This document shows, in pieces, positions 33,827-62,375 of a stretch of DNA of 64,000 nt (positions are counted from its first letter, which is position 1; every line of letters starts with the position of its first letter). The position numbers were made by a program, and so were the translations under genes. This DNA comes from Amyloporia xantha. Lineage: Eukaryota; Basidiomycota; Agaricomycetes; Polyporales; Adustoporiaceae. The stretch spans positions 62,001 to 126,000 of the forward strand of contig JAYKKR010000028.1 of assembly GCA_036971615.1 (NCBI GenBank), read 5' to 3'. A model generated the notes under the pieces. It had not been told where the DNA came from. It saw nothing but the letters and a program-made list of their open reading frames with translations, and did no database searches.

Positions 33827-34281
33827 CAGTCATTATAGCCTACTCTATAGGGAGAGATATGGGTGAAATTTTTATTACTTAGTAAGGAGAGCGGACGTCG
33901 GCCGACGCCATCGCTATAGCCTGCAGTGCAGGGTCGGCCGAGACGGTATAATATAGCCTGTAGATACGGCGCGGCCGAGTGCGCCATATTTCCGTAGTAT
34001 ATTCTCGCCTTCAAGTAGCGTCGGCCGAGAGGGTATAATATAGCCTGTAGATACGGCGCGGCCGAGTGCGCCATATTTCTGTGGTATATTCTCGCCTGCA
34101 AGTAGTGTCGGCCGAGAGGGTATAATATAGCCTTTAGACACGGCGCGGCCGAGTGCGCCATATTTCTGCGGTATATTCTCGCCTTCAAGTAGTGTCGGCC
34201 GAGGGCTATAATATAGCCTGTAGACACAGCGCGGCCGACTGCGCCATATTATCGTGGTATATTCTCGCCTTGAAGTAGTAT
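33827..34281. repeat. Left terminal inverted repeat and 87-bp subterminal array
   Basis: 33827-33933 is the unique terminal part. Units of exactly 87 bp then start at the palindrome TCGGCCGA at 33934, 34021, 34108 and 34195, the last truncated near 34281. Each unit also has a second CGGCCG core, a GCGCCAT and an AT-rich half. It is the inverted counterpart of 61653-62375. Confidence 0.95.
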
Positions 34282-34493
34282 ATTCCGCCCTATTGTTTCC
34301 TTTTCTACGCTTTAATTATATGCATTTCAATAAATCTCATGCTGTATGTATAATAATAATAATGCCTCGCCATCCATTAGGCTTTGCAATCTGTCATTCA
34401 TCACGACGTTTCGTGTGTGGTCAGGTCAGTGGTGTGACTACAATTCAAAGCGCAAGGACTGATTGGCCATTTCCGACGGCTCCATACACCCCA

Positions 34494-34812
34494 CCCAAGA
34501 CACGCGCAGAGACAGGGCCATCTTACATGTGTCCTTCAAAGGATCCAGCTGTGTGGACCCTTTGTGGGACACAGATCCAATGGCCATCTCAAGCGGCAGC
34601 ATCGCGCTATATTCTACCGCTATACATATTTCATGTACGCTAAGGTCATTTGAACTGGATCTACCCACCTACCAGCATCTAATACATATTCTCGCCCAAC
34701 CCAAGACACGCGCAGAGACTGGGCCATCTGATATGTGTCCTTCAAAGGATCCAGCTGTCTGGACCCTCTGCGGGACACAGATCCAATGGCCATCTCCAGC
34801 GGCAGCATGCGC
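34494..34812. repeat. Direct repeat pair of about 114 bp, 206 bp apart
   Basis: Copies at 34494-34608 and 34700-34812, both starting CCCAAGACACGCGCAGAGAC and ending in CGGCAGCAT, with a few substitutions. They lie in the left subterminal zone of the KDZ element. The open frames across them are a by-product of the repeat. Confidence 0.85.
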
Positions 34813-34911
34813 TATGGAATCATGGCGCCACCATGTCCAGACGCGCTATGCAACCATGCGCCACGTACCTTGCCTGCCACATTGTGAGGCGTATGGCACG
34901 CAGGTGTTATG

Positions 34912-36010
34912 ATGTGCTGGCGCTGTTGGACGGGGCCATTTCATCCTTGCTACCCTGGGTCACCCAGAGGAATCGAATCACCGTCCACGTTTTGAGAGTA
35001 CCCCTGATGCTGATGGACAATTCAGCTGCATCCGGAGTACTCATGGCGCGGAGGGCAACTCGATTCCACTGGTGAACGTAGAGAGCAAGGAGTTAATGGC
35101 TTTATCCAACAGCGCCTTGCATGAATCCCGCATCCATGCAGACCATAAATTTGAAACTCACGTTAGAGAGTCAGACTCCAGACAGGAAGACCTGACTTAT
35201 GTTCCTCCGAGCCGCATACCTGTGGCTCAGAAGGACATAAGTCAAATGGGCCTTGTCCGGCAGAAACGGGCGCCATCCGATGGCGAAGTGCATGCGCGCT
35301 GATGCTCGCTGTTGGGAGATGGAGCTATCGCTCGCCAGACAGGGCGCCTTCCTCTGTGTCACTCGGAGCAGCATACCTGCGGCTCGGAGGGCCACAGATG
35401 GAAGTTGCGCTGTCCGGCAGCGATGAGCGCCATCCGATGGCGCCATGCATGGCGCGCTCATGCTCACCGTGAGATGGCGCTATGGCTCGCCAGACAGGGC
35501 GCCTTCATCTATGCTCTTCAGAGCCGCATACCTGTGGCTCCGAAGGTCATAGATGAAGCCGCCTCGTTCAGCGGCAATATGCGCCATCCGATGGCGCCGT
35601 GCATGGCGCGCGCAGGCGAGGCACATGGTGCGCAGCCGGCGTGATGTGCTGGCGTTCTCGACCTGCATGATTCTTCAATGCTACCCTGGATCAAAGCATC
35701 TGAATCGAATCGCCATCCAACCATTGTTGGATGGCCATCCAATTCAGCTGCTTGAATACCAAGGCCATTGAAGAATTGGCTGGCGCAGAAGGACGTCATG
35801 CATTTATGCACTCACCGCGCAGACGAAACGGATACATACGCCACCTGAAAACACCCACCTTTGACATGGCGCGATGTCCAAAGAGCATGATTTGCTGGCG
35901 TCCTCGAGCTCGGCCATTCGTCAATGCTACCCCGAAGTTAAGCGTCTGAATCGCATCGCCATCCACATGATTGGATGGTAATGTGATTCAGCCGCTTAAA
36001 TACAAGGTCC
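34912..36010. repeat. Nested degenerate repeats in the left arm of the KDZ element
   Basis: Two repeat types interleave. One is a tandem of about 155 bp with GCATACCTG-containing copies near 35211, 35371 and 35525. The other is a motif of about 120-150 bp (GATGTGCTGGCG ... GCTACCC ... GAATCGAATC/GCATCGCCATCCA) near 34912, 35643 and 35890. The tract is unusually dense in CGCCAT/ATGGCG. No convincing gene; frames here follow the repeats. Confidence 0.75.
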
Positions 36011-36127
36011 ATTGAACAAATGGGAGACGCTGGGACGTCATGCACTCGTGCTCATAAAGGCAGCGACAAGAAATACATACAGACAACGGCGAGATCCACC
36101 TACGACATGGCGCGCAGAGACCCGGTC

Positions 36128-36882
36128 TCACTCCTCATCTGGCAACAGCACCTCTTTGAAGGCGTCCAACATCCTTGTGAGGTCGCCGGCATCGCGATGG
36201 CGGCTCTCGGCGAAGCGGGTGACCAGGCGTTCGACGTCATCCAATCGATGGCTGACCGCTCTCATATCGCGGTAGTTGACTTGATAGGTGTCGCCGCGAC
36301 GCTATGCGGCAATCGATGCAATTTATGTGAATGAATGTGTTGAAAAGGTGGGAGCGGGGTGGCGACTTACTCTGTCATGCAGTGGATACTTCCACCATGC
36401 TGGAAGGTGACTGGGAGGGTCGTCTGGCCAAGTCCACCACGCGGGCTCGGTTTCTGTGCGCAGCTTCTGTAGCTGCAAGGATGGCGGCGAGGCGAGCGGC
36501 GTGAACGGCTGTATCTCGAGGACGTGGATCCATGGGACGGCCCCAAAGACGGTGGCGTCGCTGATCTTGCGGATGACGTCGGGGAGCTCGACGTCGGTGA
36601 CGCCGACGAGGGCGAGGCGGCCAAGGCAGTCGCGAAGGGCTTCCTGCTGAGCGTCAGAGCAGACACGTTGGGGAAGGCGAAGCTTACCATTTCCATGCGG
36701 AGGCCAATCTCCCACCGCGCCAAGGTGATGTCGAAGCCAGCCACCTTGTCTCTACCGGCGGCGACAGACATGATGGTCGCTAGCGCCTGCTCGCAGCGCC
36801 AGGCATAGTATGAGATCAGTCGGCGGTTGATAGCGATGAGGCTGGAGAGGGACTGTTCGCGATTCTTCAAGGCGAGAGCCAT
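36128..36882 (-). CDS. KDZ-element cargo: hypothetical protein of about 200 residues
   Basis: Exon 1 starts at 36882 (MALALKNREQSLSSLIAI) and ends at a GTAAGC donor after EIGLRMEM (near 36,690). Exon 2 (EALRDCLGRLALVGVTDVEL through WWKYPLHD) ends at a GTGAGT donor near 36,374. Exon 3 (RRGDTYQVNYRDMRAVSHRL to LLPDEE) ends at a stop at 36128. All exons have natural composition; exon 3 is strongly helical. No known domain or catalytic motif. It lies between the left repeats and the transposase, divergently oriented from the latter, so the two may share an upstream region (36,883-37,157). Confidence 0.55.
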
Positions 36883-37157
36883 TGCGCCGTGGGGTGAATG
36901 GGTTGGTAGGCCAAGGCGAAATGCAAGGCGAATTTGAGGAGTCGATGGTGGATCGGGTGATTGCCTCGAGGGAAGGTCATGGCGAAGATCCGTCGGAGAT
37001 AAGCATCGGCCAAGTATCTGAAGGTGATCGCGTGGATATGATCCGTTGTTGATAAGGGATCAGGAGGCAGGGGCGTGAGAGATTGCCATTCAGTATGAAA
37101 AGGAAGCTGTCATGGATCACAATAAGCCAATTGTCATCTGTCCGCAGTGATACGGCC

Positions 37158-40100
37158 ATGGCCCGCACGAAGAAGCAACATGTCAGTGGCGATGCGGTGT
37201 TCGTGCGTCACGAAGAATGGCGAACTGCAAGAGGCGCCGTCACATACGTTCCCAAGGAAGCACCGCTACCGCGTGCGCATGTGCCGACAAGCGCATCAAG
37301 ATCGCCGTCGAAATCCCCCTCTAAAGCCGCGTCTCATGACACATATTCCGAACCCGTGCAGGAGCATGTGGTGTTTGACGATGTGATGCCGATGAAGAGT
37401 CTGCACAAGGTGAGTACCGTCGCCTTATTTGGGTCGCTCAATGTCAACGCCGAAGGCGGGGCAGTCGCAGAACGACTTTATGCGCGAATGGCTTCCACTT
37501 CGCGATGTGTATCTAAGCCACATCATCAAGCTAGAAGCTCCACCAGGTGAGAGACGATGCAGCAAATGCGCTGATGCGCATGGCGATTGGCGCTGCTTGG
37601 AATGCTTTGGGCGCCCCGTGTATTGCGAGGACTGCCTGCAGTTGACGCATCGCCGCATGCCGCTGCATCGGGTGGAGAAGTGGGCGGATGGGTTCTTCGA
37701 ACCGGCGTGGCTTCGGGAGGTTGGGGTGCGGATGCATCTCGGGCATGATGGCGAACCATGTGTGGATGCGGAGTCCCCGATCACGCCGCTGGATGGGGAT
37801 GCTGATAGCGATGGCGAAGACGACGACGTGAGTGACGCCGGGGACAATGAAGAGGATGAAGAGCCAATCAAAGCGGACTCGACGGCGCCGCGAAGTCACT
37901 ACGCATTTGACACTTTGACCATTGTAGATGTTACGGGGATGCATAGCCTGGACGTTGTGTGGTGTCGGTGCGATAACAGGCTCACTCGAGACCTGCAACT
38001 ATTGGACATGGGCCTCTATCCTGGGAGCACCAAGCGGCCACGCACTGCGTTCACATTTCGGGTGTTGGATGATTTTTGCTTACCAACAAGGAGTGCAAAA
38101 CCTCGGGGATGAATTACTACAGCAAGCTTCGACGTGTCACAAACTCCGCGTTCCCGCATTCAGTGCAGGTAAGCCGCTATGTGCATATGAAGCTGTTTTC
38201 GCCGTTGAGAAGGGGCTAGAACCGTTACAGAGAGCTTCTGCGGGTGTCCCGCCAATGGCGAAACCTCAAATACCGCAAATGGCATGGATATGGTCATGGC
38301 GCCTCCAACGCGATACCAGCTGGTGGCCTCGCTTTGGGGTGCCCGGCATGTCCCAAGCCTGGCGTGAATCTCGCTTCCGGATGGCGTGATGACCCCGTAC
38401 AGTGAGCCATGTAAGACGTTTTTGGGCGGCATGTGTAACGCGATAGCAGATGGAAGTACATGAGGAGCATCGTAATGGACGGCAACTTTAGCGCGGAGCA
38501 TCTCAAGATGCGTCGCCCAGAGGACGACGTCATTCTCAGCGATGGCGACGCTTTCATGGTGGGCGATGACACCTACAAGAAGCATCTCGCTGTCGCCATC
38601 GAGCATAAAGAGGTCCGTGATCGACTCCTAGTGGATGAACCGTTGGACGCTCATAGCCTATGTAGAAATCCTTCTGTCACGATCATCGCGCCGTCAACCA
38701 GGCGAATGCAGATCGCCATAACCTTGAAGCCACGGGGATTGGCGCCGCGGCCTGTGCGCGCCATGGGTTTTTCATGCCGCATGCGGTGGTTGATTTCCAG
38801 AAAGGCGAGAGGTAAGTGGTTTGCTATTTCCTTTGTTCACTTACACCCGCCATCAGACAGATGAACATGGATTACGCGCTGAGCGAGGTGCTCGCCACCA
38901 TGGCGGGTATCCAGGTGCTGCTGGTGATGTACGACATCATGTGTCAATACGGCATCAATCTCATGAAGCGGTTTGGGGAGAGTGAGTATTTGCACATGCC
39001 GCCGAACGTGGAGATACGGCGCGGAATAGGCCTGTTTCATGTCCACGGCCATCAAGACACATGCTTTCCTCGCTACTCACCCAACTTCATTCCCGGTGCT
39101 GGTCAGATTGATGGCGAAGTGATTGAAACCCTTTGGGCGCCGTTGAATCTCATTTCGGGTAGCACACGCGGCATGACCACAGCACATAGAAAGGAAGTCA
39201 TTGACGATCACATGAATGATTCCAATTGGAAGAAGTTGACCGGGATGGGTGGGCCAACCTTGACATTGGTGGAGAGGTTGATTGACTGTGGCTTCAACAG
39301 CGAACACCCTTGTTAGGAAATGGCGAAAGGCCAAAGCCGGCGCCACGGAGAGCGGGGATGTGTTGGAGTTCATTGAGAGATCGAGCACGGAGGAGCAGCT
39401 AGGAGAGTGGCGAGCCGCTGAGGGCGAGGCACTCGCCATGCGTGACGCTAAAATCAGCGCGATGGATGTCTTTGACGTGCAGATGAGAAAGGGTGAGAGT
39501 GCACACTAGAGGGTACGGCCATGATTAATGATGTGGCGCAGCACCCACCCGGATGCAGATCCAACTTCAACTAACGCAAACGGAAACATCGCAACATCGC
39601 CATCAGGGCGTAGCTGCATGGATAGCCACGGGCATGAAGATTCAGGGATTGCAGTAGGTAGCGTCATTGAACATCGGGTGCCAAGCTCACAACAGGTCTT
39701 AGGTTGGTCATTAGCCAACTGAAACGGAAGATGGGCCGGCATCCGCTGGTGGCGGACCGCCTTGCGCTGGAGGAGCGCCGTCAGCGCCTTCAGAAGCGTA
39801 TAGTGACATTCGAGTCCAAAGCCGCTTCGTACATTCCACTTGTGGCCGAGCCCGATGGGGATGGCGCCTCAGAGGCTTATGACGGGTCTGAATGGGATGC
39901 ACTGGAGGAAGATGTCAATCCTCTTGATGAGATTTACACCGGTGAGATCGATTCTGGAATCCAGCCTGAGAGCGCCATCATTTCGCTTCCATCGCAGCTT
40001 GGCTACGATGTTGTCGTGGCCAGCGGTTTTAGAGGACATCGCTTCGGAGGAGTTGAGTTTGCGCATTGGGCAGGCCAATGACGCCCTTCATCAGATTCGC

Positions 40101-40720
40101 CTCGCCATTGGTTACAAGTCAGTGCTGTTTCGTACGGCGGTTCGTCATGCAAAGAGCCAGCGCCAAAGCTCCGGTCCTGGGACGAGGTCATCTCCACGCA
40201 GAGGGCGGTGCTAGAGAACGTGCGCATTTACAGTCAAAGCCGCCACGCCATCCTCGCTCTGAATCCGACTGACGCCATCAAAGCACGCTTCCGTGCCATT
40301 CAACATGATGACCTCAAGGCGATCACCGCGCTGCTCGACAACTCCATCCGAGGAACACGGCAGGACAAGTTGTCCTGGATATGGACCGTAGACATCGAGG
40401 GCGATTCAACGCAGTCCAACTGGTTGACGGAGTGTGAGTGCGCTTGTGGTCCGTCCAATGCCCGCAATGCTGACTGCAGCGCGGCAGTGCATCGCGTCAA
40501 CTGGTTCCGTGCAAAATCACGTAAGGATAGGTGGGCGGAGGAGTTTGTCATGGTCACGGCAGAGATGGCGTGGACGCAGGCGAGCTTCCATAACAAGGCG
40601 AACCTATGGCGCTCCCGCCTCTATGGGCCTCCAGGTCATGTATGCTATGCGCGCCGTCAGGCCTCGCTGTGGACGCGCATGGCAGAGCATGCCGCTTCTC
40701 GCTTTAATACATGTGTGTGA
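37158..40720 (+). CDS. KDZ-superfamily transposase with N-terminal CxC cysteine cluster
   Basis: Transposase of the Kyakuja-Dileera-Zisupton class, predicted to mobilise the surrounding element. Exon 1 is 37158-37409; intron 37410-37470; exon 2 holds the KDZ-associated cysteine cluster (CSKCADAHGDWRCLECF, then YCEDC and LTHRRMPLH). Core motifs follow over several exons: MNYYSKLRRVTNSAFPHSV, RYRELLRVSRQWRNLKYRKW, IVMDGNF (Asp), CHDHRAVNQANADR, VVDFQKGERQMNMDY, MYDIMCQYG (Asp), GEVIETLWAPLN (Glu). This gives the expected RNase H-fold D-D-E set. Further introns read with confidence are 38169-38219 and 38613-38665; several more are needed. The C-terminus (WFRAKSRKDRWAEE ... SRFNTCV) is complete and typical. 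One defect: at 38073-38077 a run of five T shifts the frame relative to the following conserved block. Confidence 0.9.
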
Positions 40721-40787
40721 TGGTTCGCCATTCACGACCCTACTAGATACACAAACATAGACTTGACACAAATACAGATCTGTGTAT

Positions 40788-42054
40788 TCAACCATAAGTC
40801 CACTCCATCCAGTGCGGTGCCTTGACATTCATCGCGGCATGCACTGAGTCCCTCATAAAATAAGCGTAGCATATGCGCTCTCCATCGCATCTCTGAACGC
40901 CATGGCGCAGAAGCTTTCCGCAAAGCGCAACTACGCTACCCGCCTTGTAGTCTATAGCGATATTTGGACCATCCAGCTGCATTTCCAATGCGCCGTAGCT
41001 CCCTACCGTGGTGAGAAGGTCGAACCACTGCTTGCGCGAAGTTTTTATTGCGGTGTAGCGGCGTCTCGCGATTGCTGATGACCTGAACGCCATTGAAGAT
41101 CGAAGACCAAGCGCTTACTATTGCGGGATACTCCACTTCGCCAAGAAGCGACTCCATGCATGTATGTCCCACAGCATACAGGTCGGGATGCATGATGGAC
41201 ATCATGGCGGATAGGATGGCGGCTGATTCACGGATGGCGGTCAACCATCGCCATCCACTCTGGCCATCTTTATCGCGTAAGCTCGCCGAAGGCAGCATTG
41301 GGTCCAATGGGCCCTGGATGTATGCGCCGTCATTCGCCAGTCATCAGAGTTAAGGGATCGTCAGCGTACCGTGTGACCCAGCGCGTGCCATCCTGGAGAC
41401 AGATTGACAGTCCCCGGAGGTGTGGTGCAGGTTGATCGATCGCGGAAATATGCTTCATGGTTTCGCCAACTGACCCCCGGGGCTTTACGCATCAGTTGTG
41501 TTGATAGGTGGGCCGTCGCCAATTGTATCTCTCTCTGCCGACACAGCGTAGTGAGCACGGTGCATGGCGGAAGATGAATGCGCCCACCTGGCGATTCACA
41601 TGAAGGACGCCCGGAAGCACCCATGCTAGGATGCGCGAGTGCTGGTCGAGGAGCACGCAGGGTTCATCTAGAACCACGGTGGTGTCTGGGAGGAGAGGCG
41701 GCCATTTAGTCTTGAGCTGCGCCTCCAGATTCACGTTCTGTCCGGTGTTGCCCACGCCTATAGCATCAGAATAGCGGTCAATGTCCCAGGATAAGCGCAC
41801 TACTTCCCGGTCAGCGCAGAATGAGTAGATGCCCACAGCATCCAAGAGTACACACCAGGTTTGATATATGCCTTTGCGAGCTGGTGCGCGATCTGGCTGC
41901 ATTCGACGACGATATCGGCGCGGATATGTGTGGGAGGCTGTGGGTTTCTCGGTTGTCCGGCTGCATTCCGAAGCTTGTGTAGCCAAAACTGAAACATATC
42001 GCGCATGCAAGCTGCCAATGTGTCGCTGAGCTCCAAGCCGCTGCCCGCTATCAT
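40788..42054 (-). CDS. TET/JBP-family 2-oxoglutarate/Fe(II) dioxygenase, probably defective
   Basis: Fungal TET/JBP proteins oxidise 5-methylcytosine (or thymine in JBP) in DNA using Fe(II) and 2-oxoglutarate. Start at 42054 (MIAGSGLELSDTLAACMRDM); further exons give LLPDTTVVLDEPCVLLDQHS, PPGTVNLSPGWHALGHT, and an exon from GPLDPMLPSASL through EYPAIVSAWSSIFNGVQVI. The dioxygenase core follows: ETPLHRN (HxD position; CAC at 41055-41053, AAT at 41049-41047), KQWFDLLTTVGSYGALE, then GSVVALCGKLLRHGVQ (distal His) and GERICYAYFMRDSVH (Arg for 2-oxoglutarate). Two lesions are visible: Asn in place of the iron-binding Asp, and an extra T at 41040/41039 that puts the rest in another frame. It is divergently oriented from the HMG-box gene and converges on the transposase. 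Assignment rests on motif memory, not a search. Confidence 0.75.
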
Positions 42055-42503
42055 GGCTTACAGACAAGAGATGGATGGAGATACACGCCCATCTCGCATT
42101 ATTGCTCAATCTGCCATCTACTGACCATGCTGCAACAGCATGTCCATTAGCTTTGCACACTTGTTTGGTCGATCACATCGTTGAGCAAGCGCCGGCAAGA
42201 TCAGGCCCAGCCGATCGGCAAGGCGTGATCAGGTGATCGAGGCGCGTCATTGGCATGTGGACCGCGATTCTCGACCACGGCGCCATTACGCCGGGGCCTC
42301 GGCCTGTGAGATGCCGCGCTCCGCCGGAGGGATGCCGGTCGGGTCTGCCCCGACATGGACGCTTGCAGTGTAAGAGAGATCAGCGGGGTTAGAACAGGAC
42401 GAAAGTATCACCGGAGGTCAGACACGTCTGGGCAAATGTTCAGTTGGGAGTGCCCAAGTGTCTGTCATCCTGAGAGCATCTCGGTCTGCTTGTTGTCCTC
42501 GCC
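42055..42503. promoter_or_regulatory. Divergent intergenic region, TET/JBP and HMG-box genes
   Basis: 449 bp separating the minus-strand TET/JBP start from the plus-strand HMG gene start (GCCATGG at 42501-42507). It must contain both 5' regions. GC-rich middle (GCGCCATTACGCCGGGGCC near 42,280); no assignable TATA box. Confidence 0.4.
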
Positions 42504-46102: not shown

Positions 46103-46106
46103 TTTC

Positions 46107-46123
46107 TGGAGCCCACCGCGAGG
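46107..46123 (+). other. Putative primer binding site
   Basis: TGGAGCCCACCGCGAGG begins 4 nt after the 5' LTR. TGG at this position is the usual complement of the CCA end of a tRNA primer; which tRNA is not determined. Confidence 0.6.
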
Positions 46124-46124
46124 G

Positions 46125-48136: not shown

Positions 48137-48146
48137 CGCAACACCG

Positions 48147-51640: not shown

Positions 51641-52529
51641 TTCGAAAGAGACAGCGAAGGCCCTCGCCGACTGGATCTTCGAAGACATCCTCTGTCGATG
51701 GGGCGCGCTCAGCGAGATCGTCACCGACAACGGTACGGCGTTCATCAAGGCGGCCGACTACCTTTCGAAGAAGTACCATATCAATCATATTCGAATCAGC
51801 GGGTACAATTCGAGAGCGAACGGTCTCGTCGAACGTCCGCACTTCAGCACACGGCAAGCTCTCTTCAAGACAGCCGACGGAGATGAGAAGAAGTGGTCCC
51901 AAGCTGCGTATTTCGTCTTTTGGTCCGAGCGCATCACGACTCGACGACGCATGGGCTGCTCACCCTACTTCGCTGTTACGGGCACCCATCCCCTCATTCC
52001 CCTCGACATCGTCGAAGCAACGTATCTCCAACCCCCGCCAACCTCGATTCTTTCTACGACCGACCTCATCGCCCGAAGAGCCATCGCGCTCCAGAAACGC
52101 GTCGAGCAAGTCACCGAACTCCATTCGAAGGTTTACGAAGCACGTCGAACGGCAGCAATTCGCTTCGAAAAGGAGCACGAACACTCGATCCAGAATTTCG
52201 ACTTCAAGCGCGGAGCCCTAGTGCTCATACGCAACACGAAGATCGAGAAGTCCCTCAACCGCAAGATGCGCCCGCGATACCTAGGCCCCCTCATCGTTGT
52301 CTCGCGCAACAAGGGCGGCGCGTACATCGTGTGCGAGCTCGACGGTACAGTCCTTGATCGACCTATCGCAACATTCCGCGTCATCCCGTATTTCGCTCGA
52401 AAATCCATCCCAATTCCCGAAGATCTCGAAGATGTCTCGACAGAGCGCCTTCGAGAACTCGAACTATCGAATTCTCTCGGCGACGACGACGACGATGAAG
52501 TCGAAGAAGCCGAAGAACACGACGAATAG
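51641..52529 (+). CDS. pol: Integrase catalytic core and C-terminal segment
   Basis: Continues the integrase in a new frame: SKETAKALADWIFEDILCRW, EIVTDNGTAFIKAADYL (second Asp), ISGYNSRANGLVERPH (catalytic Glu in the usual place), then the C-terminal part with FDFKRGALVLIRNTKIEKSL and RPRYLGPLIVVSRNKGGAY, a GPY/F-like module common in Ty3/gypsy integrases. It ends in an acidic tail at 52529. The D-D-E residues appear complete across the two segments. No chromodomain recognised. Confidence 0.9.
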
Positions 52530-52996
52530 AGGTTCTCCCATTCTTACTTGTACAACACGATGCGTACTTTCTTCTCTCCGTTTCTGCACTCATGTTACGC
52601 TATATGCTTGATTTTCTCCTACGATTTAGATCTTTCCATGTACGAATACCACGATTCAACTCGATAAAGTCGCGATATCGCTTCAACGTTCTACGAACGC
52701 GTCGATTCGACCGTTGCGCGGAGGCTCACCTTAGACGAGTCCTCCTAGGCTGTGATGACAAACTGAGCCTATATTTTCATTAAGTCCTTATGTTCTTCCT
52801 CTACGAACGTTTCGATTTCACCTATTTCCTTCGATCATATTACGACTTGCTTCGAACACGCTTATTTTCATTCCATTTCGTTCTCTTAGTTCGCGCTGGG
52901 TTTCGTCTAGGCCATAAGGCCACAATTTTCATTCAACTAATTTACGCGGATGTTTCTACGACTACGACTACGCCACGATACGACCTGCGACATCGC
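52530..52996. other. Non-coding spacer downstream of integrase
   Basis: AT-richer stretch between the end of pol and the 3' end of the antisense gene. No open frame of note. Confidence 0.5.
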
Positions 52997-54393
52997 CTAG
53001 TCCTCGTCGACAGCCCCGCGGACGAACCCGATTCCTCCGTTCGCAAGCGCGGTCTTCTCCATCTCCTGGAGGTCGAGGTCCATATCGTGAAGGAGTGCTC
53101 GACGGCGAGCGATGAAAGCGCGCTCCTCGCGGATGACGCGAATGATCCCCCGAGACTCGGCGTCAAGGCCGAGCGCATCAAGGTCGTCCTGTTCCAGACC
53201 AAGGCGGCCGGCCCCATCGAGCGGCAGTCGCAGTGACGGGCGCGGAGTCTCGTCGACTCGACGCTTCTTCGAACCACTCGATTCCGCGACCGAAGCCACG
53301 GGAGAGGGCGGCCGAACTACTACAACGTTAGCCAACATCAGGACACCCAGAGGAAACAACCTACTGCGCTTTTTTGTGACTGCTCCCCCGCCGCGCGTTT
53401 TCTTTGTCTTGCCAAGCACAGACACCTTGTCGAAGTAACATCCCTGCTGGGACTGCGCGCACCTCTCGCAAGTCGTGGCGTTCTCGACCCACACGCACTC
53501 GACCGGGGCCGAGCGGTAGCCGGCGCAACGATCACACTATCGAGAAGTTAGCATCGAACAGCTTCGACGGAGAATCGAGCTTACCTTCTGCCCGGCCTGA
53601 CGCTTCGCGAGCGCAACGGCGGCCATATCGACCTCCGTCAGCGCGAACGGACGTTCGAGCATCCGCGGAGTCTTCTACGAAAGAGAAATTAGCAATCCAG
53701 ACGACAGCGAAGAGAAAACTTACAACCGAGGGTCGTCCGACAACTCGATGACCTCGTCGTCGGCCTTCGCGCGCCCTTTCCCTTGTTGGCACCGGCGGGT
53801 GCGGGGTCAGGGATGAGTCCCTCAGCGGCCGCGATCTTCGCCAACTCCTCGTCGGCGGCCTCTTGTTCGCGACGCTCGTCTTCGGCAGCCTGCTTGCGAC
53901 GGTCCTCTTCGTCCTTTCGACGCCGCTCGTCTTCAAGGCGGCGGTCTTCGGCGGCTTTCGCACGCTTCTCAGCCTCTTCGGCGCGTCGTGCTTCCTCCTC
54001 GGCAAGGCGCTTCTGCTCTTCAGCGCGTCGTCCGACCTCGGTATCGATGGCGGTCGCGAGCTCAGGCCAGTCACCGCGCGCCCACTCCACCCAAGACTCC
54101 GACGCCCGCTCGGCGAGCTGCTTGACGGCAGCGGCGATACGTAGCTCCGTCTCTTCGTCACGGATGGCGCCCAAAGCCTTGCGATAGGCGAGCTGGCCGA
54201 AAACAAACGGTTAGTCGAATTATGCAGACTACGAGCAACTTACGACGAGAGGCGACAAGTCTTGCGCCCACTCTTCGACCACATCGAGCGTGGCGTCGGC
54301 GGCCGGCGGAGCCTCGAGAATCACCAGCAGAGAGGCGAGGCGGCGGTTGACGAGCGAAGGCGTCGAAGCAGGGGTGGCTGAACGAGAAGACAT
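52997..54393 (-). CDS. Antisense cargo gene of the retrotransposon: coiled-coil, Zn-cluster protein
   Basis: Transcribed opposite to gag-pol. Exon 1 starts at 54393 (MSSRSATPASTPSLVNRRL) and ends at 54244. Intron 54243-54193 is 51 nt with GTAAGT and CAG ends. Exon 2 (LAYRKALGAIRDEETELRI) holds a long Glu/Arg/Ala coiled coil (RAEEQKRLAEEEARRAEEAE, and on to about 53,850). Further exons give MLERPFALTEVDMAAVALAK and then a six-cysteine cluster, CDRC ... VEC ... TTCERC ... GC, followed by a helical C-terminus ending at 52997. GTAAG donors near 53,724 and 53,585 support splicing. The frame changes by one base near 53,785 (to ADDEVIELSDDPRL). The overall plan is coiled coil plus Cys6-type cluster, probably DNA- or protein-binding. 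It is not a standard retrotransposon gene. Confidence 0.65.
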
Positions 54394-54620
54394 GGTGGCA
54401 GCAGTGAGGATCGACGAAGATGGCGAGCTGACGACGAAGAGATGGTGGACTGGGGAAAACGAGGCTAAGTCCACCCAGCTTATATCCCCTTCTCGACCAG
54501 CGTTTAGCGCCGACCACGAGGCGTTCGAAACCGACACGGGTTGCCATGCCGCTTCGATCCATTCACGATCATCACGATCCTCGCATCACGTGGAGGACCG
54601 AGGACGGTCCAAATTTCAAT

Positions 54621-54630
54621 AAGGAGGAGA
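54621..54630 (+). other. 3' polypurine tract
   Basis: AAGGAGGAGA directly abuts the 3' LTR at 54631, the expected primer for plus-strand synthesis. The wider context 54599-54630 recurs at 51080. Confidence 0.8.
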
Positions 54631-55722
54631 TGATAGGCGCCAAGCCCCTCTGGGCCCCGATCCAGCTCTTTTCGGTAATCGCATCCCGCCCGGCACTTCG
54701 GCTCACTCACCCAAGCCTTCGATTTCGCCTTCGACGTTCTTCGATGCTACGCATGTGAGCCCCGACGCTCAGTACCCTTCGACACTCTTCGATGTCTTCG
54801 ACTGTTCGCTACGCTTGCTCGAAGCTCGGCGCGGTCGTCCCGAGGCTTCTCCCTCAGATCCAGGACCATCTCCCGCATCCGGCGGACAATGGTGCCACTC
54901 GACGCCGCTCGTCCAACGCGTGCATCGCTTCGTGCCACACCGACGCGTCCGGTCTTTCCCGAATAGGTATCGAGCCTCGCGGCGTGCCTTCAAAGGCGGA
55001 TATCGGTCCGAGGTGTATCGTATGTTTCCCTTCATCTTCGCGTTCGGCATGACGTCACTCGACCGATGGCCTCGATACGTGCCACTCGGTGAGGTGGACT
55101 CGTGTAGGACAATGCAAAGCCACTCGTACTAGTGTGCCACTCTCGATAGTCGTAGCGTTCTGTTTCGTAGTATAAAATCTGTCGTATTTCTCTCTCAAAT
55201 GAAAGTTCCTTTTCCCCCTCGAGTTCAGAGCTCATAAGTCGAGTTCGCCCTGCGTCTAAAGTCTTCTACTGCGTTCACCGCGTTACTTCGTCTGCGCTGC
55301 GTTTACTTCGAAACCTCGTCTACTGCGTCTACTCGTCGAAACCGTCTCGACGAACCTTTGATCCTACGATCGCCTTCGATTACCATCGAAGAACTGCGTT
55401 GCGCCTCGAACCACGTTCTAGCTAAGTCCTCCCTCTCGAAGCATTTCTATTCCTTCTACGATACATCGAAGAGCTCTATCGAGCTTCGATTGTCTCTACC
55501 GATCCCCGCTAACTACCCCAGCCTCCGAGTAGCTTCGACGACGTGTCGAGCTACGTCGTAAGTTCCTCTAGCGCTCGTAGCCTCTTCGAAGGCGTTTCTC
55601 GTGTTCCCTCGAACCGCGGGACACCTTGCTGCTAACTCCCCTCTCACTAAGACTATAATCCGTCTCTCTAGTCCCTTTAGGTCGCACCCAGGTTAGGGGT
55701 TAGGGTTTCGTAGGTCGTATCA
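54631..55722 (+). repeat. 3' LTR
   Basis: 1092 bp, identical by eye to the 5' LTR except for one G fewer in the GTTAGGGGTTAGGG tract. Followed by the CCGT target duplication at 55723-55726. Confidence 0.95.
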
Positions 55723-55726
55723 CCGT

Positions 55727-56499
55727 TTCCAGTCACAGGAAAACCGCCTCCAGCAAGGCCGCTAATGACCACGGGAAGATCGGTCTTTCCATCCATACCT
55801 AAGCGCGCCTTGGGTATGAGACCGCGTCCACAACTAGAAGAGAGACCGCCATCAATTGACGGCGCACCGCCTTCCTCGCCAATGGCGCCAGGGCGCGCAC
55901 CACCATCCTCCCCCATCGCGCTCAATGACGCAACTGTCCGCCGCGGGAGTATGGATTTCTCCTCCTCTCCACCTATTGCGATGAATCAGCTCTCACCCGT
56001 TCGAGATATGAGGGGCCTACAGGTTCATTTCTCCGACCGTGAAAATCATGACAGTGAAGACGAGAGCGACGGCGAGGCCAATCGTGGTCCTTCTCCCTCA
56101 CTTCCTGTGCCAAAGCGCAAGACACGCCAAACAGCTCGGCAGGCAAAGGAGATCAATATTCAGGCACTGCCAACGGCAGGCGGGTCCTCGATCACGGGTG
56201 CTCTCAACGACATGAAGGTCGCCACCCACACTCGTCAGAAGACAAAAGCTAAGGAGGAAAAGTTGAAAAAGCGAAGTCACCGCGTGAGCGAAGAGGAGGA
56301 AGAGGAGGAGGAAGCAGAGAAACCACCCCAACCTCGTGAAAAGCGAAAAAAGGCGGGTCGCTCAAAGCGGGCTCTGGCGGAGACTTATAGCGATGGCGAG
56401 GAAGAGCAGGGCGAGCCTGCCCCCGCCATTCGTAGGTCATCGCGCAAGACAGGTAGGGGAGCTCAGCCCCGACCCACTAAAGCGCGTGGTCGCCGTTAG
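55727..56499 (+). CDS. KDZ-element cargo: HMG-box-like protein, 3' part
   Basis: C-terminal half of the gene split at 45,009. Omitting the retrotransposon and one CCGT copy, the Pro-rich frame before the insertion continues in the same frame here (PVTGKPPPARP, then MTTGRSVFPSIPKRALGMRP). The segment is disordered: Ser/Pro-rich, then acidic (DRENHDSEDESDGEAN), basic and Glu-rich (EEEEEEEEAEKPPQPREKRK), ending in Arg/Gly-rich sequence (IRRSSRKTGRGAQPRPTKA) that resembles AT-hook-like or nuclear-localisation sequence. Stop at 56499. Confidence 0.65.
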
Positions 56500-56722
56500 A
56501 ATACTATTTCCCATGTACACTACCTCGCATTTAAATTCAATGGCGATGATTGAACTCAGCGCTGCGAAGGATGGCGATGGCGTGCCGCTCCCTGTGCAAG
56601 CCCCCGTGGCGCACTGTGATGCCGAGGGTGTTGCCGTCATCGCAGTCTCAATGTTACTGGTCGCTGGAGAGTGTACACAATGCATTCGTTTGAAAGTACA
56701 GCAAAGTTACAAAAACAATTAT

Positions 56723-59494
56723 CTAAGGCGAAGCGGGAGGCATCTCGGCGTCGTCGACAGTGACGGGTGATGTTGCGGCATCAGGCTCTCGCTCCTCCGC
56801 GGCCACGCTCGCCATCTCGTCGTCGTCGATCTCCAAGGAGAAACGCCTGATTGAAGGTGTGGAGCCACCGGCGGGCGTCGACAGAGCTTCATTCGTGAAG
56901 TCCGATTGATCTCCTACAGAGCCACGCTCTGAGGTAGACCACGAAATGGGAGTGGCTCCCTCGTGAGCGCTGTCCATGATCGCCCTCGCCTTGCGCCGTC
57001 GTTGCGCGTCCTGTTCCGCCTTCTGCACGAGCTCCACCGACAGATGCGCCTTGTCCAATAGCGTCTCGGCCTCCGCGTCGTTGTGGCGAGCGACGTCACG
57101 GCGCACTGACTCAAACTGCGCGATGAGTCCCTGTAATCTCGCCTCACCTGCCTCAATGCCCGCCATCGCCTGCCGCGTCCTCTCGCTCTCATCGCGCACG
57201 TTGTCCATCAAGGTGTCCACGCGCACCTCCATGTTCGCGACTTGGGCACCAAGGCGATCCATCGCCATGTTCTCCTTGGCTGCGCGCAGATCGTCCTGCA
57301 GAACCGTGACCATCTCCTCGAGCGCGGCGATGCGAGCGACGGAGTCCTCAGAGCGCACATCTTGCAGAGTCTGCTCCGCGCCTTCCACTCTTGCCAGTAG
57401 GCCGCCAATCTGCCCCTCGGCGTTATCAATGCGCTCGGTCATGTTGACCTGCTGCCTGTTGATGGCGAGCAGTGACTGCTGGAAGTTGTCGACCATGCTA
57501 CCGAAGCGGTCTTGCCACGCGGTCATTATGTTGATGTTCTTCTCGAGTCGGTGGCCTTGCTCAGTGAGGTACGCCGTAAATGGCTGGAAATGAGACAGCT
57601 CCTGGTCCTGCGCGTAGCGCCCTTCATCCATGGCGGTGGGGTCCTTGGAGAATCCTACGTAGTGGTGGTACTCGCCATGGTGGTCTGGCAGCCACACATT
57701 GACTTGGTCAGTTGATCGCGCCGTCCAGAAAGAGTGAAGCCGACTTACATTTTACCTCCCCAGGCCTGAGCCCAAGCCGCACCGAGCGATCGCTCGAGCT
57801 GCTGGCCTCTGCCTCCCTGGAGAGGACGGTCCGCGCGCTCCTTGCCCTTCCCTTTAGCCACCGCTGGAGGTGGCTTCCCAACCCACGCCTTCATCGAGCT
57901 GAGCGACGTCTTCGGGAGCGGCGCTATTGGGCGGGGACGCAGCCGCATCGCTAGTCGCTGACGCCACCCGCAGCTGGCTGTCCACCTCCGCGTCGTCCTT
58001 CGCATCGACATCCGCGCTACCCGCCTTGCCATCGTCCTTTTCCCCTTCTTCTTCATCCACATCCATCTCATCGCTCGCCTTCGATTCCGAACCCTTCGCC
58101 GCCGCTTTGCCCCGCTTGCCTCTATCCTCCACAAACTCCTTCCTCTCCTCATCCCAGCGCGGTGGAGGAGGCTTGATGCCATCGGCGAGGCTGTTCTTGA
58201 TGACGTCCTGATACTTGCTTGCCAGGACTGCACCGTAGGGGCCCCTGATCGGATTGCCGCTCAGGTTGTGTGGCACGATCGAGCAGCCTATCTTGCGCTT
58301 CAGGCAGCGCATGCAACGCCGACCGTCCACGACAGCAAGCCTGCATTCAGCTTTGGCCTTGGCGCAATTTCCGCAAGGCATCGCCTGAAGGCATGTCAGT
58401 CAGCATCGCTTGCCGCGCATCTGGTAAACGTACTCACCGAGACAAATGTCTCCGTCTCCTCCATCTCCTCACTCTCGCCTTGAGCATCCTCGTCCATGTC
58501 GTCATCTTCGGGCGCCGGCGAGGCCTTCGCCTTTCCCTTTCCCTTCCCCGTCGACGATCCCGCCTTCGCCTTCGACCGCGTCTGCCTGGCGTCATCATCC
58601 TTGCCCGCAGGAGACTTGCGCGATGAAGCCTTCTCATTCGTCTTCGACGTCGATGGCCCCGCCTTCGTCTTCATCCGCGGCTCAGACTTGCCGGCCGTCG
58701 TTTCCTCTCCTGCCGCTTTCGCAGTGGTGGTCTTGACTCCGCCCTTGGATGCCGCCTTAGTTCCCGGCCGTCGTTGCAGCCCCTCCGCGCCGTGGCTTCT
58801 TCGTTACTGGTGCAGCGATGACGACACCCTCATCGCCGTCCGTCGCTGGCGTCGTTCCCTTTGACCTTCTAGAGGCCGCCCTGCGTCGTCATCCGCCCCC
58901 TTCTTCGCCACTTTCCCTCGACTCCCGCCCGCCTCTGCCTCCTCCGTCACCCCACTTGGCCCCGCAACTCCATCCCCACCCAGCGCAACCTCGCTCGTAC
59001 GCTTGCGCAACAGCGCTGCTGAGCCGTTAGTGATGACGTGGCGTATGGTTTCGCAGTGCACTCACCTTTCCACCAAAGGTTGCCCCCGAGGTCTTCGGCA
59101 ATGTAATCGCCATGCCACACGTATTTGGAGAGGCCATGGCTTTGAATGGCGGGGTCGTCAACCTTGATGGCAGTCAAGTCCACTCCGCGCTTCTTGTGCG
59201 ACGCCACCGTGTATTGCGCCATGGCGCTGACCAACAGCGGCGGCACTTGTAATCCCTCGCGGTGTTTTCCCAGCGCCTTGATCTTCGCGAAGATCGATTG
59301 CTAGAGGCGCCATTATACAGACTCAGCGCCACAGTGCTCACCCTGATTGTGTTACAATCACTTACCACTTCCTCCCAGAAGTTGCTCTCAAACACCTTGT
59401 ACTTCGCGTCGCGCTTCCCGGGCAGAAACTTCAGCGCCTCTTCCAGGCGCACTGCGGCGATGATGATGTCGCTGTTGATGCTGGAGGCGGACAT
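56723..59494 (-). CDS. KDZ-element cargo: Zn2Cys6 coiled-coil protein
   Basis: Exon 1 is 59494-59366 (MSASSINSDIIIAAVRLEEA), intron 59365-59301, exon 2 is 59300-59066 (SIFAKIKALGKHREGL to GGNLWWKG). A disordered Lys/Ser/acidic region follows, then MPCGNCAKAKAEC and GRRCMRCLKRKIGC (58,381-58,280), together C-x2-C-x6-C-x9-C-x2-C-x6-C, the spacing of fungal Zn2Cys6 DNA-binding domains. After another acidic linker, the last exon (from about 57,690 to 56,723) encodes a long coiled coil (ERIDNAEGQIGGLLARVEGA and on). Between exon 2 and the cluster the frame changes at about 58,760 and 58,880 without visible introns, so this copy may be damaged. Probably a DNA-binding protein of the element; it could act on the subterminal repeats, but that is inference. 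Confidence 0.65.
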
Positions 59495-59541
59495 GGTGGT
59501 AGAAGCAAAGCGAGATGGGATTTGACAGCTGTGGTGATGGC

Positions 59542-59568
59542 GGTGGTGGTGGTGGTGGTGGTGGTGGT
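59542..59568. repeat. GGT trinucleotide microsatellite
   Basis: About nine GGT units, just upstream (on the minus strand) of the Zn2Cys6 gene start at 59494, so in its likely 5' leader as ACC repeats. Confidence 0.9.
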
Positions 59569-59743
59569 AGAAGAAGAGACGAAGTCAGACCCACGCGGTG
59601 CATCGCGTTGGTTGATGGCGGGCGCCTGGCGGAAAGATCCGCGCCCGTTCGATCGGCACCGCACGTGTTGCGCTCATGGGTATATTAGATGCCTCTAGAC
59701 GAACTTGGCACGTTTCTGCATTCCTTCCGCCTTGCTTTCAACC

Positions 59744-61449
59744 ATGTCGGAACACGCAGACGAGCTAGGTGAGCACATCATGTAGATATCCTCACGCCAA
59801 CCTGCGCTCACTCCCCTCAGCCCGCCAAATACTAGACTTCGACTCCTCGCCCATCAGAGGTGATGCCCTCGCCCTACCCTGGACTTCGAGTCCTCGCCCA
59901 TCAGAGGGGATGTCCCTCGCCCAACTCTGGACTTCGACTCCTCGCCCATCAGAGGGGATGTTTCTCGCCCAATTCTGGATGTGGTGTCTTCGCCTTCGCC
60001 TTCGCCTTCACGCACTCTGCCACCAGCGCGTACGCTTGGCGATTTGTCCGCATCGCCATCGCCATCCCCGCCGCCGCTCAACTTTCGCTTTGCTATGTCG
60101 CCAACGCCTGACCTTGCCAACGTTCAGGGGGATCTGCACAACGTAGCACTCCTCTCGATATGCCGCCACCGCCGTCCGCGCCTACTTCAAAAAGACGTGT
60201 GGACCTCGTCTTCCCCCAATTAACGTCCCCTCAACTACGTAGGCCCACAATGCAGTCGGCATCTTCCCAAGATATAGATCTCTTCCGTCCATCGCTCAAC
60301 ATTTCGCCCTCACCGCCGAATACCTCGCTATCAAGACAACCGTTGGATTTCACCTCGCCATCGCGAATGCAGACCTCACCTTTTAGATCCGCCCTGGACC
60401 TTTCACCATCGCAGGTAAACACCCCGTTGCACCGTCCACAGCTTGACCTGGAGGCATCTCCAGAGCGAGTGCACAGCGCCCAGCCTACCTTCGAGTCGCC
60501 TGTCCCTCATCGTGCACACCTCGACTTGTCGCCATCGCTGTCTCCAGTCCTCCAGCTCCGCGATCAGCTGGATCTCCCGGCCACTCCATCTCCAGGTATG
60601 TCCACACTCATGTTTTTAAACCTATTTCCTACTGACACTCCATTCCTCTACTATTGAAGATAGAGGCGCGCCTATGGATGGCGTCGTGGATGGCGGCGTG
60701 GACGGCGGCGTGGACGGCGGGATGGACGGCGCACTTGATCACGACCTTGCGCATAGCCAAGATGGCGATGTTGACATGGCGGATGAGCGCCTCATCCAAC
60801 TCAATCACCAGGTATTTTGCCTCGCTTTCTCTTGCCTTTGTGTTTGAATACTCATAGACAGTACCTTGACATTATAAATGAGGTGTTGGACGAGCACAAC
60901 ATACCCCGCGGTCCTCTGGTAAGTGAAAGCCCTCCATCGCCTTCATCGTCATGCTGATACCACTCCAGGACTTGGAGGCACACCGTCAGCGGCTCAGAGA
61001 CCGTGGCCAGGATCTCCCTCGTACCTTCGCCCTCGCTCCCATTCTGGATCACGACGAGGACATCATTGACTCAAGTAAGTACAGCGAAATTCACCCTTTC
61101 ACCATACTTAAATATGCAAAGAATTGGAGAATCCATACTTTGATGATGGCAGAGGCCACTCCCCCAATAGCGCCATGAACGCCATCGAGATTAAATTCGG
61201 TATGACACTGCGCTCGCAATTTGCCATTCGCTAAAGAAAACAATAGAAGGTTTTCCTCGCGGAAGCTAAAACTTGATGTTCCTTCAAGCGCAATCCCTGA
61301 GCGAGAGGTTACGACGTATAGAAGAGGACATCGACGTCGCCAACGCAATCTTGAAGCTGCACCAGCCCATCAAATCCTTGCTCACAGCCAAGCCACCGCA
61401 GGACGGGACCACTGGGGTTGAAGCCATGATGTGGAATGGCGAGATATAA
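59744..61449 (+). CDS. KDZ-element cargo: Pro/Ser-rich protein with C-terminal coiled coil
   Basis: Exon 1 59744-59768 (MSEHADEL) has a GTGAGC donor; exon 2 starts at 59821 with a 16-residue repeat around LDFDSSPIRGD (three copies). A long disordered Ser/Pro/Leu-Asp region follows (for example RQPLDFTSPSRMQTSP, HRPQLDLEASPERVHS). An intron of about 64 nt lies near 60,597-60,660, then a Gly/Asp repeat (DGVVDGGVDGGVDGG), acidic HSQDGDVDMADERLIQLNH, and exons QYLDIINEVLDEHNI and DLEAHRQRLRDRGQDLP. The last exon is helical (LSERLRRIEEDIDVANAI) and ends at 61449. The first repeat unit is 47 nt instead of 48, shifting the frame. Function unknown. Confidence 0.5.
60677..60730 (+). repeat. Coding 12-bp minisatellite (GTGGACGGCGGC)
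   Basis: About four degenerate units encoding VDGG repeats within the Pro/Ser-rich protein. Confidence 0.8.
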
Positions 61450-61652
61450 TTCGTTATACAGTATATACTCCGATGTCGTTGGCATCAAGGACAAAATGTA
61501 GTCACAGAATATTGAGTTGCTTTACCAATATACGCGAACACATGACCTGGCGGCGCCGATACCGCGCCATGAAAATACCATCCCAGTGGGCATACCAGGC
61601 CCATAAGCGCGGCGCGCCATGATGCGCGATATGAATACCACTGCATCCACCA

Positions 61653-62375
61653 TCGGCCGACGCTACTTGAAGGCGATAATATACCACGGAAATATGGCGC
61701 ACTCGGCCGCGCCGTGTCTAAAGGCTATATTATAGCCCTCGGCCGACGCTACTGGAAGGCGATAATATACCACGGAAATATGGCGCACTCGGCCGCGCCA
61801 TGTCTACAGGCTATATTATACCCTCTCGGCCGACACTACTTGAAGGCGATAATATACCACGGAAATATGGCGCACTCGGCCGCGCCATGTCTACAGGCTA
61901 TATTATACCCTCTCGGCCGACACTACTTGAAGGCGATAATATACCACGGAAATATGGCGCACTCGGCCGCGCCGTGTCTAAAGGCTATATTATACCCTCT
62001 CGGCCGACACTACTTGCAGGCGAGAATATACCACAGAAATATGGCGCACTCGGCCGCGCCGTGTCTACAGGCTATATTATACCCTCTCGGCCGACGCTAC
62101 TTGAAGGCGAGAATATACTACGGAAATATGGCGCACTCGGCCGCGCCGTATCTAAAGGCTATATTATACCCTCTCGGCCGACGCTACTTGAAGGCGAGAA
62201 TATACCAGGGAAATATGGCGCACTCGGCCGCGCCGTATCTACAGGCTATATTATACCCTCTCGGCCGACCCTGCACTGCAGGCTATAGCGATGGCGTCGG
62301 CCGACGTCCGCTCTCCTTACTAAGTAATAAAAATTTCACCCATATCTCTCCCTATAGAGTAGGCTATAGTGACTG
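61653..62375. repeat. Right subterminal 87-bp array and terminal inverted repeat
   Basis: TCGGCCGA-anchored units start at 61653, 61739, 61826, 61913, 62000, 62087, 62174 and 62261; the spacing is 86 once, then 87 six times. The last leads into the unique terminal part, which ends at 62375 as the inverse of 33827-33933. Because 87 is a multiple of three the array gives spurious frames of up to 224 codons. Confidence 0.95.

Follow-up and report, generated by a model that had tools for sequence, protein, structure and literature searches.

Does a 28.5-kb stretch of the Amyloporia xantha genome, which lies between inverted copies of one sequence and holds genes for a KDZ transposase, a TET/JBP dioxygenase and probable DNA-binding proteins, represent one transposon with a gene set of its own? 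The stretch is part of a 64,000-bp window, the whole of the DNA analysed here (contig C21, positions 62001-126000; the genome is 46.8 Mb), and a preliminary description made from the sequence of the window alone had presented it as a giant KDZ element with intact-looking ends. We conclude that the window in all likelihood contains one copy of a cut-and-paste DNA transposon that is present many times in the genome, belongs to the KDZ superfamily and comes closest to the TET-positive Kyakuja elements. It has a native length of about 17.8 kb, long inverted ends, arrays of 86/87-bp units, 7-bp target-site duplications (TSDs) and a recurring gene set (KDZ, TET/JBP, HMG-box, Zn2Cys6 coiled-coil and Ser/Pro-rich proteins), and the copy in the window is probably a hybrid.

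In a comparison of the window with itself, positions 33822-34279 matched positions 61922-62380 in inverted orientation over 459 bp at 95% identity, with 87-bp tandem units in both, which bears out the inverted ends about 28.5 kb apart that had been described. A search of the genome with the 105-bp end sequence, as proposed earlier, yielded at least 40 matches at 100% identity, from 213 candidates of which 40 were scored, and a 40-bp end pattern, with up to three mismatches allowed, was present at 168 places compared to none for the reversed control. We examined the outer flanks at 101 ends, comprising the 100 listed of these 168 places and the right end of a second copy on the window's contig (hereafter, the C21 copy). 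Left ends (47) read GAGCCCATTCAGTCAT and right ends (54) CACACCATACAGTCAC ahead of the shared sequence, and the boundaries of the duplications place the termini at GAGCCC...GGTGTG, i.e. GA..TG. At distances of up to 60 kb, neighbouring ends made up 43 convergent pairs. A left end was combined with a right end in 41 of them; 31 of these 41 were flanked by an exact 7-bp TSD and one more by a TSD differing at one base. With shuffled partners, the number of exact TSDs averaged 0.87 and never exceeded 7 in 10,000 shuffles. The excess over shuffled pairs and the 168 places against none in the control rule out that the ends are chance repeats.

We accepted 32 pairs (31 with an exact TSD and the one with a single-base difference). 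They range from a single 10.0-kb pair through 18 of 17.0-19.6 kb to 13 longer ones. Among the matches listed, KDZ was found in 32 of these pairs, TET in 30, an exon of the HMG-box gene in 31 and the Zn2Cys6 gene in 31, while all four markers were present together in 29. Thus, the earlier proposal of a KDZ transposon whose two ends enclose a recurring set of genes holds at the level of the genome. Moreover, of 79 TET matches over the cut-off, 67 had a listed KDZ match and 70 an exon of the HMG-box gene within 4 kb. A TET match was located within 4 kb of 74 of the 150 listed KDZ matches, so that roughly every second KDZ gene of the genome lacks a linked TET gene.

The element had been called giant on account of its 28.5 kb. 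Within it, we observed a young Ty3-like retrotransposon with long terminal repeats (LTRs) at 45010-46102 and 54631-55722 (1092/1093 bp, starting with TGATAG and ending with GTATCA) that differ by a single indel, with RNase H and integrase domains in that order, and with a CCGT target duplication. The empty form of this site is present in a copy on contig C3 (C3:940070-957848; 17,779 bp; TSD TGCATTC; hereafter, the C3 copy), which is colinear with the window over 35178-45010 at 98.6% identity and over 55723-62021 at 97.9% identity, while the stretch between is absent. The empty site rules out 28.5 kb as the native length. Without the retrotransposon and one 4-bp target copy, the window element measures 17,850 bp; the native unit is about 17.8 kb long, and the excess is the nested LTR retrotransposon. 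The features of the window are listed in Table 1.

Table 1. Features of the element and its surroundings, in positions of the window
Feature	Position	Strand	Remarks
Whole KDZ-TET element copy (family A), including nested retrotransposon	33818..62384	+	28,567 bp; junctions common to other copies
Left outer target sequence GTATCCT	33811..33817	+	No matching copy at right
Left terminal inverted repeat with array	33818..34279	+	Self-comparison
Left subterminal array, 87-bp unit x 4.0	33933..34279	+	Tandem repeat reading
Upstream orphan region	36327..37059, limits approximate	-	One frame with dN/dS 0.19, families A vs B
KDZ transposase gene, several exons	37152..40720, start approximate	+	CxC2 cluster; KDZ domain Pfam match 38,828-39,226
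TET/JBP (AG-type) gene	40788..42172	-	Catalytic exon 40788-41340; upstream exon region 41492-42172
HMG-box protein	42474..44131	+	HMG box 42776-43015; conserved downstream exons 43174-43533, 43499-44131
Long disordered open reading frame, first part	44212..45009	+	522 amino acids in C3 copy; frame uncertain at 44473
Nested Ty3/gypsy-like LTR retrotransposon	45010..55722	+	10,713 bp; LTRs, CCGT target duplication, empty site in C3 copy; foreign to KDZ element
Long disordered open reading frame, second part	55723..56496	+	Split off by retrotransposon
Zn2Cys6 coiled-coil protein gene, several exons	56726..59577, upper limit approximate	-	Cysteine cluster about 58,283-58,375; coiled coil 56726-57751
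Ser/Pro-rich protein	59762..60654, lower limit approximate	+	280 amino acids in C3 copy; dN/dS 0.23 between families
Right subterminal array, 87-bp unit x 7.1	61653..62269	-	Tandem repeat reading
Right terminal inverted repeat with array	61922..62384	-	Self-comparison
Right outer target sequence GTAAGGA	62385..62391	+	Identical to left-end target of inverted copy at C21:29,630

Besides family A, the genome contains a family B, exemplified by C34:2312120-2330043 (17,924 bp; ATCTCGT on both flanks; 86-bp arrays), which shares gene order and ends with family A. Three further pairs at B-type places had exact duplications (3 of 3 with both sides examined), and a family B left end at C6:627,829, examined on one side only, was kept outside the counts. 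Identity between the two families is about 50-85% along most of the element. Near-identical patches were detected in the left non-coding region (about 1.0-2.5 kb, at 92-98% apart from a single 250-bp bin at 88.6%) and in the transposase core (4.75-5.5 kb; 93.6-99.2%). In this core, dS is 0.09-0.11, whereas the first KDZ exon has 0.25 and the remaining gene exons for which dS could be measured have about 0.7-3; this low dS points to a conversion or recombination patch and suggests that families A and B recently exchanged the transposase core. In a third family (L071), the order KDZ-TET-HMG is kept, with 54% identity in the TET exon and 33-35% in the exons of the HMG-box gene.

The predicted transposase was recognised by its KDZ domain (PF18758; E 1.6e-31 in the window open reading frame (ORF)) and its CxC2 cluster (E 2.8e-21 in the window, E 9.2e-23 in the C3 copy). 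In the window, the gene has private 1-bp indels at about 37315, 38072, 40027 and 40164, two of which lie in the C-terminal exon. The predicted TET/JBP dioxygenase gene was supported by the C3 copy but is damaged in the window. The corresponding exon of the C3 copy matches PF12851 (E 2.9e-17) as well as CcTet (7vpn; E 1.9e-19), with HRD aligned, Ser at the position of Gly331 and Asp at 337, and an AG-type TET/JBP protein with the HxD motif and the equivalent of Asp337 is present in both the C3 and C21 copies. In the window copy, a private 1-bp insertion breaks the frame at about 41039, and no TET/JBP Pfam match was found inside the window because of this frameshift; moreover, the catalytic exon has HRN in place of HRD. 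The GAT codon of HRD, in the context CGCGAT, is AAT here, and the window TET has lost its iron-binding Asp through a CpG transition. The window copy is probably not autonomous. A regular expression for the TET motif was silent at 5 of 13 loci, reflecting a limit of the expression and not absence of the motif.

Private substitutions in three aligned copies, with polarity taken from the majority of these three copies only, were C-to-T changes on either strand in 25 of 44, 26 of 55 and 19 of 43 cases. Of these, 23, 21 and 12, respectively, are at CpG, together 56 of 70 (80%) compared to 29% of GC sites (p 2e-18), a pattern such as methylation would leave. The CpG observed/expected ratio of the element is near 1.0, and CpG depletion is therefore slight. 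The host genome has four matches to DNA methylase.

The HMG box was below the Pfam cut-off (E 0.011); its predicted structure, modelled from two sequences, is a three-helix fold with a predicted local distance difference test score (pLDDT) of 81, and 48 of the 50 listed Foldseek rows for this model are HMG-box proteins or complexes containing them (top rows, probability 1.00; best TM-score by query length, 0.69; best E 0.03, none reaching E 0.001). These results agree with the HMG-box-like protein described at first. A model of the conserved region downstream of the box was discarded (pLDDT 37.5). The long disordered ORF, in which the window and C21 copies are one base shorter than the C3 copy at position 44473, is possibly the C-terminal part of the HMG-box gene. 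In the coiled-coil protein, six cysteines are spaced C-x2-C-x6-C-x9-C-x2-C-x6-C in family A and C2C6C8C2C6C in family B, in which all six are kept; this spacing fits the fungal Zn2Cys6 motif, and the Pfam match to Zn_clus was below the cut-off (E 0.12). The long coiled-coil ORF is conserved at 42% and has 116 matches in its own genome; identity is 64-100% where the match belongs to family A, and 43-46% where it belongs to family B, except for two short pieces there at 67%. Protein databases gave one match for the coiled-coil ORF, one for the HMG ORF (the window's own) and two for the coiled-coil alignment, too few to yield a distribution across species. The palindrome CGGCCG was rejected as a candidate Zn2Cys6 site: family A arrays contain 8 in 347 bp and 15 in 617 bp, family B just 1 per array stretch. 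The shorter CGGCC occurs twice in the consensus units of both families.

Open frames elsewhere in the window were also observed. Inside the retrotransposon, downstream of pol, antisense ORFs at 52997-54207 on the minus strand encode a cysteine cluster and a coiled coil; the cysteine ORF has 41 matches in the genome, counting the window's own and often in two pieces per copy, and is like the Zn2Cys6 gene of the KDZ element in outline, not in sequence (18% identity). In the left flank, a 589-amino-acid open frame at 1506-3275 on the plus strand may encode a further transposon protein.

We calculated dN/dS (omega) by the Nei-Gojobori method on the best tblastn segment between the C3 copy and family B, using one copy per family and without modelling introns. 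Omega was 0.49, 0.12, 0.35, 0.08 and 0.05 for the KDZ exons, 0.08 for the TET catalytic exon and 0.38 for the TET upstream region, 0.31 and 0.19 for two HMG exons, 0.37, 0.32, 0.37 and 0.23 for the Zn2Cys6 exons (0.67 for the 45-codon first exon), and 0.23 for the Ser/Pro-rich gene; the third HMG exon was saturated (proportions of synonymous and nonsynonymous differences, pS 0.86 and pN 0.15). Among the upstream frames, one on the minus strand had an omega of 0.19 and five others 0.32-1.16, and out-of-frame controls had 0.79, 0.93 and 0.35. The family B segments contain stops in the last KDZ exon (2), the TET exon (1), the TET upstream region (2), the disordered ORF (1), three upstream frames (1, 3 and 2) and each control (1). 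In total, most of the gene exons tested are under purifying selection, with dN/dS well below 1.

Judging from what is known of these protein families, the KDZ protein would cut and join the element ends, and TET would oxidise methylcytosine on the element and thereby keep it transcribed, while the HMG and Zn2Cys6 proteins may help to assemble or target a complex at the subterminal arrays, binding of the arrays by the Zn2Cys6 protein being the weaker suggestion. We infer that the cargo genes have a joint anti-silencing function. The earlier idea that the element may encode its own chromatin and methylation handling is of the same nature, and is strengthened by the purifying selection on most exons tested and the scar of CpG decay.

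The window copy itself proved less intact than its ends had suggested. In addition to the broken TET frame with HRN, its outer flanks GTATCCT and GTAAGGA are not a 7-bp duplication. A single exact GTAAGGA was found beside a left end; it lies on the minus strand at C21:29624-29653, some 66 kb away from the left end in the window. That the left-end target of this inverted C21 copy equals the right target of the window copy fits an inversion between inverted copies on one contig, by which the window copy would have become a hybrid, and its two ends seem to derive from two different insertions. More generally, among 37 unmatched ends (15 left, 22 right), we identified 8 exact left-right cross-matches compared to 0.02 expected, all 8 within the same contig; 5 are same-strand, the signature of inversion, on four contigs, and two of these 5 form an exactly reciprocal set on C34, while 3 are opposite-strand and compatible with nesting. 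Swapped duplications between copies on one contig were observed at C34:2221-2284 kb, C12:2418-2547 kb, C6:594-655 kb and C21:29-124 kb.

Several observations weigh against our interpretation of the genes and of the window copy. Of the 32 accepted pairs, 2 have no TET match, and one 10-kb pair has neither TET nor HMG. The dS of the long disordered ORF is saturated (pS 0.79, pN 0.38), and the control opposite the TET exon is also low (omega 0.35). The CpG bias of the C-to-T changes was measured in three copies of the element, and the proposed anti-silencing role rests on homology and the pattern of decay. As for the window copy, the reciprocal right end AGGATAC predicted by an inversion was not found with up to two mismatches allowed. 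The partner copy at C21:10-29.6 kb is itself mismatched (GGAACAG/GTAAGGA) and one inversion alone cannot, therefore, explain both copies; moreover, the flank on its right side recurs unchanged at C14:676,528 and C40:235,438, and more than one rearrangement or duplication must therefore have been involved. All three aligned copies have private 1-bp indels, many in homopolymers; decay is thus inseparable from residual assembly error and permits no verdict on which copies are open.

An assembly switch would look the same as an inversion hybrid, and the window copy is one or the other. In the case of a switch, the mismatched target sites would reflect a jump between near-identical copies and no real inversion, in line with the identity of about 98-99% between copies over long stretches, the 1-bp homopolymer indels, which suggest long-read error, and the missing reciprocal end. 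By contrast, the five same-strand cross-matches on four contigs, including the C34 set in which the exchange is fully reciprocal, are consistent with repeated ectopic recombination, although misassembly could also produce such matches. We regard a switch as a serious possibility, if not the explanation we would choose. Right ends at C14:676528, C40:235438 and C21:10085, and likewise at C16:304392, C24:341433 and C39:43973, have identical or near-identical outer flanks and may be segmental duplications or uncollapsed haplotypes.

A narrower version of the anti-silencing function would be self-targeted demethylation, in which the Zn2Cys6 protein binds its own family's 86/87-bp arrays and recruits TET to them together with the HMG protein, so that the ends stay accessible to the transposase. 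The outermost bases and the converted transposase core are common to families A and B, but the arrays and the Zn2Cys6 protein have diverged, which would make recognition family-specific. We put this forward tentatively, as a scheme with a rather low chance of being correct.

At the other extreme, the TET, HMG and Zn2Cys6 genes could be passengers that are idle in both transposition and silencing. Shorter elements bear on this. With one mismatch allowed, 23-bp ends were found at 106 left and 103 right places, covering families A and B and shorter elements. Of the short pairs examined, about 4.8-9.1 kb long, 6 of 7 had an exact 7-bp TSD, and none of these 6 spans overlaps a listed match to a marker gene (for KDZ, 150 of 174 matches were listed). 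One short element, C34:1068998-1075236 (6,239 bp), has arrays 91-93% like those of family A in the best matches. Its large interior is made up of satellite-like CATGGCGC repeats, each about 20-42 bp long, whose orientation is reversed between the two halves. Because short elements keep ends and TSDs without marker genes, the ends seem sufficient in cis; probably they are all that is needed in cis, with the arrays at least in the 6,239-bp element. These elements appear to have moved without the TET, HMG and Zn2Cys6 genes in cis, as idle passengers would allow. However, most exons tested are under purifying selection between families A and B, and the order KDZ-TET-HMG is kept in the third, more distant family, and we consider it improbable that the genes are idle.

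The same ends were also seen in other arrangements. At C16:349-458 kb and C39:100-135 kb, left (minus-strand) and right (plus-strand) ends recur at a constant 3.7 kb, in a regular series that represents tandem arrays including such elements. At C1:3938226-3941584, two right-type ends with the identical 7-bp flank GTATTAA enclose 3.4 kb; perhaps two right ends suffice for mobility.

We think it very unlikely that the window holds two separate truncated elements about 28 kb apart by chance, with intervening genes that form no unit. The unmatched flanks GTATCCT and GTAAGGA are what two such elements would have, but the interior runs parallel, at about 98% and in the same order, to that of the C3 copy, a copy bounded by both ends and flanked by an exact TSD, and the same four genes recur in 29 of the 32 accepted pairs. 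The preliminary description would have been undone by ends from separate elements around a unique gene set; the first part applies to the window copy insofar as its ends seem to come from two insertions, while other copies have both ends around the same genes and refute the two-element reading in general. Finally, a basidiomycete counterpart of the Starship giant cargo elements, whose captain is a DUF3435 tyrosine recombinase, would share the large size and the several genes but can practically be dismissed, given the KDZ transposase, long terminal inverted repeats (TIRs), 7-bp TSD and largely fixed gene set, with no tyrosine recombinase among 30 ORF pieces (a subset of the ORFs) in a Pfam scan.

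The linkage of KDZ and TET is already known. KDZ genes adjoining TET/JBP and a divergent HMG-domain gene were reportedly described by Iyer et al. in 2014, where complete boundaries, target duplications, arrays and a Zn2Cys6 coiled-coil partner are said not to be given. The relevant passages of Kojima 2025 (PMC12730594) report TET-positive transposons in 11 lineages, 7-bp duplications for Kyakuja, and two Laccaria Kyakuja families with 5'-CA..TG-3' ends and no TIRs. The element described here resembles TET-positive Kyakuja in its KDZ and AG-type TET/JBP genes, in Ser at the CcTet Gly331 position and Asp at 337, and in its 7-bp TSD, which is found at the family level (31 of 41 pairs) and not in the window copy. 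In contrast to the two Laccaria families, it has GA..TG ends and TIRs of about 460 bp with 86/87-bp arrays; it also has a Zn2Cys6 gene, none being mentioned for Kyakuja in those passages. KDZ1-KDZ3 of Cryptococcus neoformans, shown to move in the laboratory (PMC12810828), likewise have a KDZ transposase with a CxC cluster and long TIRs (139-241 bp). As presented in the relevant sections of that paper, they are about 9-11 kb long with 4-8-bp duplications and CxC1, with no mention of TET, whereas CxC2 and TET are present here. The idea of a self-encoded, sequence-specific anti-silencing factor recalls the regulators of plant Vandal/MuDR elements, as outlined in PMC12730594; the likeness is one of idea, the candidates here being the TET enzyme and the Zn2Cys6 protein. 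Passages of PMC8290104, PMC12510652, PMC7473861 and PMC8889193 were also consulted. In the open-licence literature, supplements aside, we came across no description of TET-positive KDZ elements with a Zn2Cys6 gene or with subterminal arrays. Our analysis thus adds the complete structure, the conserved Zn2Cys6 gene, the arrays and the short passengers.

TET-carrying transposons of fungi are known, and interest therefore centres on the additional genes, on their membership of the element and on their targets. The complete unit, two diverged families, passengers and measured selection make the idea of a transposon that edits its own methylation directly testable, with well-delimited targets for such tests in the arrays, the Zn2Cys6 protein and TET. 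Moreover, the swapped target sites suggest that these elements also serve as recombination points that reshuffle the host chromosome.

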